A stretch of 37,842 bases of DNA from Bacteroidaceae bacterium. Lineage in GTDB: Bacteria > Bacteroidota > Bacteroidia > Bacteroidales > Bacteroidaceae. The number at the start of each line of letters is the position of its first letter. The stretch's first letter is position 1. A program made the translations under genes and the position numbers. The stretch covers positions 1-37,842 of the forward strand of contig JAFUVM010000103.1 in NCBI GenBank assembly GCA_017483665.1. The letters are read 5' to 3'. The notes under the pieces were generated by a model. It was not told the origin of the DNA. It ran no database searches and worked only from the letters and a program-made list of their open reading frames with translations. Of the stretch, positions 3,873 to 36,672 are shown one piece after another.

Positions 3873-3906
3873 AACTCTTAACTCTTAACTCTTAACTCTT
3901 AACTTT
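3873..3906 (+). repeat. Heptad tandem repeat AACTCTT next to the trpB promoter
   Basis: Four perfect copies of the 7-bp unit AACTCTT (3873-3900) plus a degenerate fifth unit abut the trpB -7 box at 3911. Comparable TAA heptads precede the -7 boxes at 1537 and 15341. Confidence 0.9.
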
Positions 3907-13018: not shown

Positions 13019-13370
13019 CCCGGAAAGCTCCGGCGCTTATTCCAATGATGCTTTGTGCTTATTTCGGGAATGCCTCATGCTTATTTCCAAACGCTTCGTG
13101 CTTTTTTCCAAATGCTTCGTGCTCATTTCCCAAATGCTTCGTGCTCATTATCCAAACGCTTCGTGCTCATTTTGGAAACGTTGGGAACACAATTTGCTGA
13201 CGGCACGTTGCAAAGTTCTTCACCGTCTTTGATAAAACTATTTCAGTGGCTTTGAAATATATTTCAAAGCCTTGGAAATATATTTTAGTGCCTCGGAAAT
13301 ATATTTCCAAGCCACTGAAATAGTTTTTATCCGCGTCGCGAAGAAGTTTACAGGCTTTCGCGAAGGAAAA
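13019..13370. repeat. 22-bp phased degenerate tandem array A (16 units)
   Basis: From 13019 the spacer divides into sixteen consecutive 22-base units, each with AT-rich edges and a GC-richer centre. Sub-families follow one another. Units at 13085-13172 share CCAAATGCTTCGTGCTCATT with few changes. Units at 13239-13326 share a near-palindromic TTTCAAAGCCTTGGAAAT type. The units between are more diverged yet keep the register. The array begins 19 bases after the stop of the HsdR_N gene and ends ten bases before the terminator hairpin of the convergent zinc-ribbon gene. Confidence 0.85.
13235..13326. repeat. Four-unit palindromic block shared with array B
   Basis: Arms 13235-13262 and 13299-13326 are reverse complements at 27 of 28 positions, with a 36-base loop. 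A homologous block in the same unit order lies at about 21749-21842. Confidence 0.85.
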
Positions 13371-20395: not shown

Positions 20396-21589
20396 ATGGA
20401 ACGCAAAGTCATCGTAGCAGGCGTGGGATGCTGTCTGGTGGACCGCATCTACGACCACATCGACTTCTCGTCGGAAGCCTTCACCTCGCTCATGAGCCGC
20501 AAGCCGGGCGACGGCGGACTCTGGCCCGGCAAGCTGGAGTTCGAGGAAGAACTGGAACGCTTCGCCGGCAGGAAGTTCGCCTCTCTGCTACCCTCCCTGA
20601 CGGGCGGCAGACAGGCCGACAAGGAGAACATCGGCGGCCCGTGCATCGTGGCGCTCATCCACGCAGCCCAGCTCACGGGCGACGCTGCCGAGGTGCGCTT
20701 CTACGGCTGCCAGGGCGACGACGAGGTGGGCAGTCATCTGCACGAAGCACTTAGCCGTACGCCCGTCAACCTCAGCCACTACCGCATCGAGCCGGGAGCC
20801 GAGACTGCCTCCACCGTTGTCCTCTCCGACCCGAACTACGACGGCGGACATGGCGAACGCACCTTCGTGAACACCATCGGCGCATCGTGGCACTACCTGC
20901 CCCAAGAGCCGGACGACGACTTCTACCGCGCCGACATCTGCGTCTTCGGCGGGACCGCCATCGTGCCGCCCATTCACGAGGCACTCGACACGATGCTCCC
21001 GAAAGCCAAACAGCAAGGCGCTCTGACCGTCGTCAACACGGTGTACGACTCCCTGAACGAGCGCAAGAACCCCCATGCACGCTGGCCCCTGGGCAGCAGC
21101 GACGAGAGCTACAGGCAGACGGACCTGCTCATCGTGGACAAGGAGGAAGCGCTTAGGCTGAGCGGACAAACGGACATCCCGCAGGCCGTGCAGTTCTTCA
21201 TGCAGCTGGACACGAAGGCCGTGCTCGTCACCAACGGCTCGCGCGACGTCTATCTCTGTGCCGCGGGCGGAACGTTCGGCGAGCTTCCGCTCACGAAGCT
21301 GCCTGTGTCCGAGGCCGTGACAGCCGAGATCATGCGCGGACACAAAGGCGACAGCACCGGTTGCGGCGACAACTTCGCCGGCGGCGTGATTGCCTCGCTG
21401 TGCTGGCAGAAGCGCGAAGGCCGCCAGCAGCTCGACCTGCAGGAAGCCTGTCGCTGGGGCATCGTCTCCGGCGGCTACGCCTGCTTCTACTACGGCGGCA
21501 CGTTCTTCGAGACCCGCCCGGGCGAGAAGCTGCAGCTCGTCGAACCCCTCTACAAGCAGTATCTCGAGCAGACAAAGTCTTCACTCTGA
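20396..21589 (+). CDS. PfkB-family carbohydrate kinase
   Basis: A 397-residue ribokinase/PfkB-family sugar kinase. The N-terminus VIVAGVGCCLVDRIYD resembles the usual G(N/L).VDI. segment. ENIGGPCIVALIHAAQL is the substrate-side GG motif, and GHKGDSTGCGDNFAGGVIAS holds the anion hole and catalytic aspartate (usual form DTTGAGD; here DSTGCGD). It is longer than typical ribokinases (about 310) because of an extended N-terminal part (SEAFTSLMSRKPGDGGLWP) also seen in some Bacteroidetes kinases. It is coupled to the lyxose-isomerase-type gene. Candidate substrates are fructose or xylulose; neither is shown. Its last four codons already form part of the 22-bp array that follows. Confidence 0.85.
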   Translation: MERKVIVAGVGCCLVDRIYDHIDFSSEAFTSLMSRKPGDGGLWPGKLEFEEELERFAGRKFASLLPSLTGGRQADKENIGGPCIVALIHAAQLTGDAAEVRFYGCQGDDEVGSHLHEALSRTPVNLSHYRIEPGAETASTVVLSDPNYDGGHGERTFVNTIGASWHYLPQEPDDDFYRADICVFGGTAIVPPIHEALDTMLPKAKQQGALTVVNTVYDSLNERKNPHARWPLGSSDESYRQTDLLIVDKEEALRLSGQTDIPQAVQFFMQLDTKAVLVTNGSRDVYLCAAGGTFGELPLTKLPVSEAVTAEIMRGHKGDSTGCGDNFAGGVIASLCWQKREGRQQLDLQEACRWGIVSGGYACFYYGGTFFETRPGEKLQLVEPLYKQYLEQTKSSL

Positions 21590-21996
21590 GGGGACAATGC
21601 CTTCGCTCTGAGGGGACAATGCCTTCGCTCTGAGCAAACAAAGTCTTCGCTCTGAGCAGTCAGAACCTTCGCTCTGAGGATACAAAATCCTCTCTTTGAG
21701 GACAAAACTTCTTTTCCCCGTGGGAACAAATTCTTCTCCCCACGGGGAAAAACTTTTTCAGTGGCACGGAAATATATTTCAAAGGCTTGGAAATATATTT
21801 CAGAGCCACTAAAATATATTTCCAAGCCTTTGAAATAGTTTTATCGCGAGCAGCGGAGGATTTGTTATAACGTTGCGGGGAAATTGTTCTTGCGACACGA
21901 GGAAAATGTTCTTGCGTTGCGGGGAAGTTGTTCTTGCGAAGCGAAGAAATTGTTCTTGCGAGGCGGGGAAGTTTATTTCCTGCGGCGTAGGAGTTT
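21579..21996. repeat. 22-bp phased degenerate tandem array B (19 units)
   Basis: Nineteen contiguous units of exactly 22 bases. Five share CTTCGCTCTGAG plus a variable ten bases (21579-21688). Three are pyrimidine-then-purine palindromes (CTTCTCCCC/ACGGGGAAAA type, to 21754). Four are AT-rich and homologous to array A (21755-21842). The rest, mainly TTCTTGCG....GGGGAAGTTG, run to 21996. Units start with pyrimidines and end with purines or A/T. The array fills the space between convergent genes exactly, starting in the last codons of the kinase gene and ending in the stop codon of trmO. Confidence 0.9.
21749..21842. repeat. Four-unit block homologous to 13235-13326
   Basis: The four units match the block in array A in the same order and orientation at roughly four-fifths of positions by eye, with the same flank (GAAATAGTTTT then ATC-CGCG). 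Arm pairing here is weaker than in array A. Confidence 0.8.
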
Positions 21997-22750
21997 ACGG
22001 TCTGTCTTCTCCTGCAAGCCAGGCCTGCACTTCGTCGTTCACGACGCGGAACTTCACTTCCCGTCCCGCAAACTCCATCGCATAGACGCGGGCGGCATCG
22101 TCGTGATAATGCGGGCGCGGGTCGGCACTCAGTATGCCGCGAAGGGCCTCGACCCGCTCGGCATCGAAGGCCGCCTGCAACTCATCGGAGAGACTGACCC
22201 CGAGCGGCTTCTGCTCACGGTTCTGCTCTTCGGCAAAACCGCCGCGGGCTTCGGGGTGACAGTCCGTGAAGGGCAGGTAAGGTTTGATGTCGAAGATGGG
22301 CGTGCCGTCCATCAGGTCGGCTCCCTCCACCTCGATGACCGGACCGTCGGGGGTGTGCAAGTGGATGCCAACGATGCGGACCGACGAGAGTCCGATGCTG
22401 TTGGGACGGAAAGGACTGCGCGTGGCCCACACTCCCATACGGCGGTTGCCGCCCAGTCGCGGCGGGCGAACCGTCGGACGGAAAGACCCTCCCCGGCCTT
22501 CCCCCTCAGCGAAGGAAGTCTCACCTTTAAGGGGAGATTTAGAGGAACCTTTTCGTGCTTCGCTGAAATCCCAAAGCAGCCAGATGTGGCTGAAGCCTTC
22601 CAGTCCGCGCAAAGCCTCCGGGTCGCGGAACTCTGGCTCGAAGACAATCCGGCCCTTCAGCCCTTTGACCAGTCCGCTCTGACGCGGCACACCGAACTTC
22701 GTAGGGAAGTCGGTCCTTATCTTTGCTATGGCTGTCAGTTCGTATTTCAT
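21995..22750 (-). CDS. trmO: tRNA t6A37 N6-methyltransferase TrmO (TsaA)
   Basis: A 251-residue TsaA/TrmO-family SAM methyltransferase forming m6t6A37 in tRNA-Thr. Seen: RTDFPTKFGVPRQSGLV, LEGFSHIWLLWDFSEA, PTVRPPRLGGNRRMGVWATR, SPFRPNSIGLSSVRIVG and GADLMDGTPIFDIKPYLP, in the expected order. Between DFSEA and the PTVRPPRLGG motif, where other members have only a few residues, there is an extra segment of about 20 residues (SPLKGETSFAEGEGRGG). It is encoded by a CTCCCCTTAAAGG-type repeat (about 22485-22553) that keeps the frame. It is the last gene after the MATE exporter, 15 bases downstream. The C-terminal part is the usual extra domain. Confidence 0.93.
   Translation of the reverse strand: MKYELTAIAKIRTDFPTKFGVPRQSGLVKGLKGRIVFEPEFRDPEALRGLEGFSHIWLLWDFSEARKGSSKSPLKGETSFAEGEGRGGSFRPTVRPPRLGGNRRMGVWATRSPFRPNSIGLSSVRIVGIHLHTPDGPVIEVEGADLMDGTPIFDIKPYLPFTDCHPEARGGFAEEQNREQKPLGVSLSDELQAAFDAERVEALRGILSADPRPHYHDDAARVYAMEFAGREVKFRVVNDEVQAWLAGEDRP
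22485..22553. repeat. CTCC-type repeat inserted in frame within trmO
   Basis: On the coding strand it reads CTCCCCTTAAAGGTGAG, then a purine-rich GAGGGGGAAGGCCGGGGAGG stretch, with no stop codon. It belongs by appearance with the palindrome at 14352-14367 and the remnant CCCCCTTTAAGGG just after the trpB stop (about 5357-5369). Confidence 0.6.
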
Positions 22751-31951: not shown

Positions 31952-32116
31952 GGTTAGTGGTTAGAGGTTAGAAGTTAGGGGTTAGAGAATACCACATTCT
32001 CCGCCCCCATCTTCCCAAACATCCCTCTAACCACTAACGTCCTAACCACTAACCACTAACCTCCAACCACTAACCTCTAACCACTAACCTCTAACCACTA
32101 ACCTCTAACCACTAAC
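31952..32116. repeat. Two opposed 7-bp repeat arrays (GGTTAGA and CACTAAC/CTCTAAC)
   Basis: Left array 31952-31988: five heptads of GGTTAGA type. Right array 32025-32116: about thirteen heptads alternating CTCTAAC and CACTAAC, with one extra base near 32040. The arrays are complementary and 36 bases apart. The right array ends five bases before the ATG at 32122, so no ordinary ribosome site is left. Confidence 0.92.
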
Positions 32117-36400: not shown

Positions 36401-36672
36401 ACGTTACACGAATTGTTTTTTACCACGGATTTAACGGATTAAACGGATTTTGAAGGGGTTTATTTATTACGGATTGAACGGATTCACACGAGGTGGGGGA
36501 CTTAACAACGATTTGTGGATTTTATTTTTAACAACGAATTAAACGAATTACACGAATTATAAAAATCCGTTTAATCCGTTAAATCCTTGGTTTCATTTTT
36601 AGTTTCATTCAGTTTAATCCGTTTAATCCGTGGTTCCTTTTCCTGTCTCAATTCGTGTAATTCGTGGTTTCA
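36401..36672. repeat. ACGAATT/AATTCGTG word family in the J-domain/nuclease spacer
   Basis: ACACGAATTG (about 36406), ACGAATTAAACGAATTACAC (about 36534-36553) and AATTCGTGTAATTCGTGG (36650-36667) interleave with the ACGGATT family. They are 9-bp-period words occurring in both orientations. Confidence 0.8.
36423..36590. repeat. 29-bp inverted repeat of ACGGATTAA units
   Basis: Arms 36423-36451 and 36562-36590 are reverse complements at 28 of 29 positions. Each arm is built of about 9-bp ACGGATTAA units. A third copy as TTTAATCCGTTTAATCCGTGG lies near 36613-36633. Confidence 0.9.

Follow-up and report, generated by a model that had tools for sequence, protein, structure and literature searches.

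A dispersed intergenic element with a 93-bp near-palindromic core and 22-bp repeat arms in a Bacteroidaceae genome

The spacer between the sugar-kinase and trmO genes

The window, that is, the whole stretch of 37,842 nucleotides analysed here (contig JAFUVM010000103.1 of a Bacteroidaceae bacterium), contains a PfkB/ribokinase-type sugar-kinase gene and, convergent to it, trmO; the spacer between them is occupied by short tandem units (Table 1). In the autocorrelation of positions 21579-21996, identity at lag 22 is 0.614, while 1000 dinucleotide shuffles of the same stretch attain at most 0.328 at this lag and, over all lags of 5-59, at most 0.349. The 22-bp periodicity pointed out in the first-pass annotation is therefore real, and so is its continuation into the last kinase codons, the array reaching back to approximately 21566. 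These codons (21566-21589) lie inside the outermost 22-bp unit, and the kinase C-terminus varies among three sister species.

What did not survive is the division of the spacer into 19 units in one exact 22-bp register. TRF, direct repeats and a local lag scan place pitch 22 at approximately 21566-21749 and 21843-21970, and pitch 21 at approximately 21756-21837; TRF reports the left block only up to 21686 and the right one from 21871, and the parts adjoining the core rest on the weaker lag scan, in which the best local lag of the left arm stays at 22 as far as the core but with less strength inward. The spacer consists of two inverted 22-bp blocks flanking a 93-bp near-palindrome with 21-bp pitch (21750-21842), and the product 19 x 22 = 418 is valid only as a total, because a 21-bp middle separates two mirror-oriented 22-bp blocks. 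Adjacent units are similar within each block (up to 21 of 22 positions), whereas a unit from the left block and one from the right mostly share 2-11 of 22 positions, as had been remarked of neighbouring and distant units. In a mirror test on 41 copies of the element (see below), the left arm agrees with the reverse-complemented right arm at 0.33, compared with 0.24 in direct orientation and 0.257 after shuffling, and this agreement is equal between loci (0.329) and within a locus (0.330). The units are contiguous at 22 bp, without CRISPR-type spacers between them, and the array is indeed not CRISPR-like. The proposal that every unit faces the same side of the helix, assuming 10.5 bp per turn, is compatible with the 21-bp pitch of the core; in the arms, a 22-bp step would drift by about 34 degrees per unit. 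Phasing of A/T at lag 11, the half-unit distance, is absent within the 22-bp units (z -0.5).

Table 1. Features of the kinase/trmO locus and of the second copy in the window
Feature	Coordinates	Strand	Basis and remarks
Sugar-kinase gene (PfkB/ribokinase type)	20396..21589	+	ORF upstream of the element; NCBIfam sugar-kinase matches all below cut-off
Left arm	21566..21749	+	About eight 22-bp units, the outermost overlapping the last kinase codons; TRF 21571-21686, period 22; direct-repeat family D1, six copies, spacing 22
Core	21750..21842	+	93-bp near-palindrome, 21-bp pitch; TRF 21756-21837, period 21; inverted repeats I1-I3
Right arm	21843..21970	-	About six 22-bp units, oriented opposite to the left arm; TRF 21871-21970, period 22; direct-repeat family D2; lag scan; mirror test, 41 copies
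trmO	21995..22750	-	Convergent neighbour; TIGR00104, 120.6 bits, cut-off 93.25
22-bp array adjoining the second core	13035..13172	+	TRF; orthologous UBA4336 spacer with a 22-bp array and no core (L078 2513-2697)
Second core	13235..13327	+	87% identical over 93 bp

The core has AAAC and GTTTT at its ends (terminal motifs ATAAAACTWTTTC / GAAATAGTTTTAT) and is built of five AT-rich boxes, three internal (AAATATATTT) and two terminal, with four GC-richer words between them. Forty core copies align without gaps over 93 columns. A length of 93 was also recorded in 100 of 101 copies, partly by construction, the ends being projected from the reference, and the claim of a fixed length rests instead on the gap-free alignment, the spacing of the end motifs and a scan of loci in other species. 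The arm units nearest the core have a common consensus that weakens with distance from it (12.4, 8.3, 5.3, 2.4 and 1.4 bits from unit 1 out to unit 5), the outer positions including arms that stop before that point. Across an AT box, opposing half-sites show anti-correlation in 100 cores from three related species (z -6.5 and -4.9), the strongest positive pair in the same set, with relatedness left in, reaching z +2.7; from these sequences, it looks as if perfect palindromes were avoided in the core. In columns 41-53 and 62-74 of the A2 alignment, the half-sites on either side of the AT box tend not to be reverse complements.

A core search of the window yields only the copies at 13235 and 21750. 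No Rfam family reaches its gathering score anywhere in the window, which contains neither tRNA nor tmRNA. Other repeats in the window include a further 22-bp array at 2667-2727, with the partly palindromic unit CCAACGCGGCGCGTCGTGTTGA, and short-unit arrays of 7, 9 and 14 bp at 32027-32116, 3873-3904 and 36425-36631, respectively.

Copies in the genome and in related species

A search of the own genome with the spacer finds this place and 39 others among the 40 of 77 candidates that were scored, that is, at least 40 places. Together with the second copy of the window, and once a duplicate entry is removed, 41 distinct copies were analysed. The end motif, with up to two mismatches, gives 86 matches at 63 places, compared with none for the reversed control pattern. 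When matches no more than 120 bp apart are grouped, the two ends start exactly 81 bp apart at all 23 two-ended places; in this 78% complete genome, no other end spacing occurs within 120 bp, and 40 of the 63 places show one end only within that distance. The array is thus more than the local satellite-like amplification originally proposed: it belongs to an element that is dispersed in the genome and whose core is conserved.

None of the 41 copies is flagged inside a gene by our own codon-usage gene caller. Among the 38 copies with a classifiable setting, 14 lie between convergent genes, 22 between tandem and 2 between divergent ones, a further 3 being unclassified; convergent genes, taken at first as the setting of the array, were dropped as a rule for the element. 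The corresponding shares of intergenic bases in the own-species stretches are 0.15, 0.59 and 0.26, a background that includes spacers carrying cores themselves, and against it the divergent copies are depleted (P 0.001) and the convergent ones enriched (P 0.0006). By hand count, 20 of the 22 tandem copies are closer to the 3' end of the upstream gene than to the start of the next one.

The closest named genomes, judged by the kinase, are Prevotellaceae bacterium UBA4336 (96%) and the Bacteroidales MAG RUG14526 (89%). Both carry the core in the same kinase/trmO spacer, with 22-bp units that differ in number and sequence, and both have at least 40 matched places (40 of 58 candidates scored in UBA4336, 40 of 62 in RUG14526). 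Among 30 UBA4336 copies, 16 share both flanks with one of the 41 window-species copies and 6 share a single flank; the respective figures for 30 RUG14526 copies are 9 and 10. At the place of the second copy, UBA4336 retains both flanking genes and a 22-bp array with the core absent, so that core and array can be separated. The alignment with RUG14526 covers only the right flank of this place, and neither core nor 22-bp array is present there. Within the genus, a core is detectable in 15 of 139 genomes, the own one included, the remaining 124 giving no core match with this query. The cores of other species are approximately 70-83% identical, with similar ends and pitch, and 24 loci were scanned for their length: 14 distinct loci from seven species, at about 70-77% identity, have 93 bp and one locus from an eighth has 94 bp, the others comprising one chance match, one duplicate place and seven without a pattern match. 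The genus stretches L069, L078 and L079 were chosen for carrying the element or its neighbour. In genome G070, whose kinase is 76% identical, the kinase gene is accompanied by two 22-bp arrays and by about ten copies of an 11-bp unit, half the usual 22 (L121 841-1264).

Between UBA4336 and the window species, core identity is 0.944 over the 18 of 22 copies that align and identity at fourfold sites 0.827, while noncoding DNA is 0.835-0.838 identical within 200 bp and, counting only DNA inside alignments of at least 200 bp, 0.909 elsewhere (0.921 before the removal of weakly scored genes). For RUG14526 the core value is 0.927, from only 4 of 19 copies and 372 bases, compared with 0.725 at fourfold sites, 0.835-0.84 in noncoding DNA within 200 bp and 0.877 elsewhere in the alignments, again those of at least 200 bp. 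The core is therefore clearly conserved above fourfold sites and modestly above other aligned noncoding DNA, the latter excess being modest because that DNA is also well conserved. Orthologous cores are on average 0.933 and 0.913 identical and paralogous ones 0.862, which argues against homogenisation as the sole cause.

These data bear on the possibility that the element is a fossil or low-activity MITE-like repeat with a minisatellite, functionless now and with arms that grow neutrally. Several observations speak for such a repeat: the copies are intergenic and dispersed with inverted ends, the core is missing from an orthologous UBA4336 spacer that holds a 22-bp array, its conservation exceeds that of other aligned noncoding DNA only modestly, and the BrickBuilt element offers a published precedent, as described in the accessible text of its source (PMC4596501). 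Moreover, 14 of 30 UBA4336 and 21 of 30 RUG14526 copies have no two-flank partner among the 41, in genomes and lists that are themselves incomplete. On the other hand, the constant 81-bp distance at 23 of 23 two-ended places means that no autonomous parent was seen, more than half of the UBA4336 copies (16 of 30) are orthologous on both flanks, and the core is more conserved than fourfold sites. The one core-less UBA4336 spacer is too diverged for a target-site duplication to be read. The spacer has no match in phages or plasmids, nor does one exact core-derived pattern in viral contigs, and a phage, plasmid or viral source was set aside on these grounds. On balance, we regard a functionless repeat of this type as unlikely, though by no means negligible.

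The position of the copies, near 3' ends and shunning divergent spacers, would also suit a bidirectional transcription terminator or an RNA hairpin protecting 3' ends. The spacer RNA folds better than 100 of 100 shuffles (z -9.3), which is expected of any palindrome; the kinase/trmO locus has six terminator-like sites where 0.9 are expected, but the second locus has none against 0.8 expected. The long hairpin pairs 80.8% of cells, the highest among the registers tried, and yet in 40 cores its percentage of paired cells, doubly changed cells and covariation score are all below 500 of 500 shuffles, with pairs showing double changes (12 against 11.2) and pair types (23 against 22.0) at the shuffle level. 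The four unit hairpins fall below every shuffle in all five measures. An RNA stem, besides, has no need of an exact 21-bp pitch. Covariation thus argues against the RNA hairpin, long or unit-sized, as the selected feature, a reading that was rejected on these grounds, and a terminator or protective hairpin is improbable as an account of the element. A Rho-independent terminator, with a T-tract after a stem that compensatory changes preserve, does not agree with the covariation score of the core, which is lower than in all 500 shuffles for both hairpin models; some arm hairpins at the kinase/trmO locus look terminator-like.

The 22-bp period in the arms and beyond the element

Orthologous arms, measured from flanking anchor to core in three genomes that are not independent, gave 68 comparisons. 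Nineteen of these show no difference in length; of the 49 that do, 33 differ by exact multiples of 22, where about 2 would be expected. The largest such multiple is 462 bp, and some of the exceptions as well as some of the exact multiples depend on anchors several hundred bases away. The UBA4336-G000 pair alone gives multiples of 22 in 14 of 20 differences by hand count. Other noncoding DNA at the same loci has 16 gaps in 2,880 aligned bases, none a multiple of 22, and a rough estimate from this rate would leave 31 of 68 arms in register by chance, compared with 52 observed. Taken gap by gap, the array spacers show 83 gaps, of which only 6 are multiples of 22 and many are of 1-3 bases; we think that lax gap costs split 22-bp gaps (e.g., into 20 + 2), and for this reason net arm lengths were used rather than single gaps. 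The 22-bp register is largely kept in the arms. Nevertheless, whole-unit change is expected of any tandem repeat, and register keeping alone is no proof of selection.

The period is not confined to the element. Using TRF at score 50, arrays were counted in the own species (298 kb), other species of the genus (920 kb), other genera of the family (701 kb) and other families of the order (225 kb). Period 22 accounts for 35, 47, 21 and 0 arrays in these four sets, and period 21 for 18, 16, 5 and 3, respectively; period 23 occurs 1, 2, 0 and 2 times, and period 20 once in the own species, once in the genus and not in the other genera. At least one 22-bp array is present in 22 of 39 other species of the genus and in 5 of 13 other genera, a small sample. 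None of the 22-bp arrays is called coding in the own species (0/35) or the genus (0/47), unlike the 21-bp arrays (7/18 and 9/16); the 3 of 21 called coding in the other genera come from a gene caller, our own codon-usage script, that models this mixed set poorly (noncoding 0.455). Of the classifiable 22-bp arrays of the own species, with or without a core, 10 of 32 are in divergent spacers. Grouped by unit sequence, the 103 arrays of 22 bp form 67 clusters, of which the largest has 19 members. The first-pass annotation had held that the period is retained while the sequence drifts, and had named arbitrary unit lengths in relatives as evidence to the contrary; the 67 clusters bear the claim out, and the lengths in related genomes are mostly 22. 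Two recurring 22-bp unit families, of CTTCCGAAATAAGCGCGAGG and CACGACACGTGCC type, adjoin each other in an apparent single register in divergent and tandem spacers (L172 12558-12732, L178 7707-7836, L180 7862-8062 and L184 3601-3769). Units of this size have a precedent in the order, since tandem repeats of 22, 23 and 41 nt are mentioned for P. gingivalis in the accessible text of an earlier paper (PMC4596501).

The 22-bp length could in principle be set by a mutational machine and not by selection, namely an enzyme with a cutting stagger fixed at 22 bp and a preference for palindromes, fill-in repair then producing exact 22-bp tandem duplications. The sharing of one length by 67 clusters fits such an enzyme, as do the peak of exact tandem runs at 22 (11 in the own species, 16 in the genus), the lengths of coding and noncoding arrays with at most 2.3 copies (25 of 22 bp, 2 of 20, 17 of 21 and 1 of 23) and an excess of palindromic units (18 of 103 reach p<=0.05, where about 5 are expected). 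Against it, many exact duplications lie within longer arrays, where unit slippage suffices, several two-copy arrays have residual periodicity in their flanks, and exact runs at 22 are absent from the other genera. We hold this to be the least probable of the explanations considered. Palindromy as a universal property of the units was discarded, the enrichment being modest.

A possible platform for a spacing-reading protein and its relatives

The reading that we favour, with a probability of about 0.42, is that of a dispersed chromosomal non-coding element that works at the DNA level, as a platform, probably for a protein that reads two-turn spacing, and that sits mostly at the 3' ends of genes. 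Fixed pitch and length, together with the tolerated imperfect symmetry, suit a DNA-level site better than an RNA stem and for this reason favour a protein platform; against it, a 22-bp unit does not match an integral number of 10.5-bp turns, the A/T phasing at 11 bp is absent, and 22-bp arrays as a class occur in divergent spacers too. In the mechanism envisaged, an oligomeric DNA-binding protein would bind the core boxes on a single helical face, with a weak, cooperative extension into the arms, where the spacing of sites would count more than their letters. Slippage or unequal exchange could then add and remove 22-bp steps in such arms while the sequence of the units is replaced. The likely outcome would be a boundary or anchor between transcription units, for instance a polymerase roadblock or a nucleoid-organising site.

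A broader proposal, possible if on the doubtful side, is that the intergenic DNA of the family is partly organised by length and not by its letters: a two-turn-phased system that binds or duplicates DNA would keep a quantum of 22 bp while the units turn over completely, and the 93-bp palindromic core would be the place where it nucleates in some lineages. Repeats are usually recognised by sequence, whereas here the period is what is common, 22 bp in arms and free-standing arrays, and 21 bp and 93 bp in the core. Should a protein or enzyme read this spacing, it would represent an unrecognised chromosome-organising or DNA-duplicating activity of rumen and related Bacteroidales, for which the fixed-length core provides a direct bait.

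In the literature searched, with most subscription journals outside reach and sources accessible in part, there is no description of the element or of a sequence-independent 22-bp rule. Several known systems are nonetheless comparable. Iteron and partition-site arrays (parS, parC, plasmid iterons) are repeated protein-binding sites in helical phase, and the element can be likened to them in its mode of working, with the difference that it occupies 63 chromosomal places and that its binding protein is putative. Bacterial minisatellites or VNTR loci gain and lose whole tandem units, but here one unit length is common to 67 sequence clusters across the family. REP elements with RAYT transposases are likewise short palindromes dispersed between genes, from which, as far as the accessible text describes them (PMC3733652), the present element differs by a fixed four-word core with tandem arms. 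The GTAG/CGTC tag of REPs is found inside none of the 41 cores; GTAG or CGTC lies within 25 bp outside the core in 12 of 41 copies as a raw count, and the genome contains one partial Y1_Tnp match (27.7 bits, cut-off 23). A further comparison is with BrickBuilt, a MITE of Porphyromonas gingivalis with 23-nt units, IS5-like ends GAGACC... and 19 copies in one strain, according to the accessible text of its source (PMC4596501). Both are dispersed intergenic Bacteroidales elements that have inverted ends and contain tandem units close to two helical turns in length. However, in comparison with that text, the element described here has units of 22 bp in the arms and of 21 bp in the core in place of 23-nt units, its ends (ATAAAACTWTTTC / GAAATAGTTTTAT), compared by eye with Table 2 of the same paper, do not match GAGACC..., and it is organised around a 93-bp near-palindromic core with two mirrored arms whose sequences are specific to each locus.
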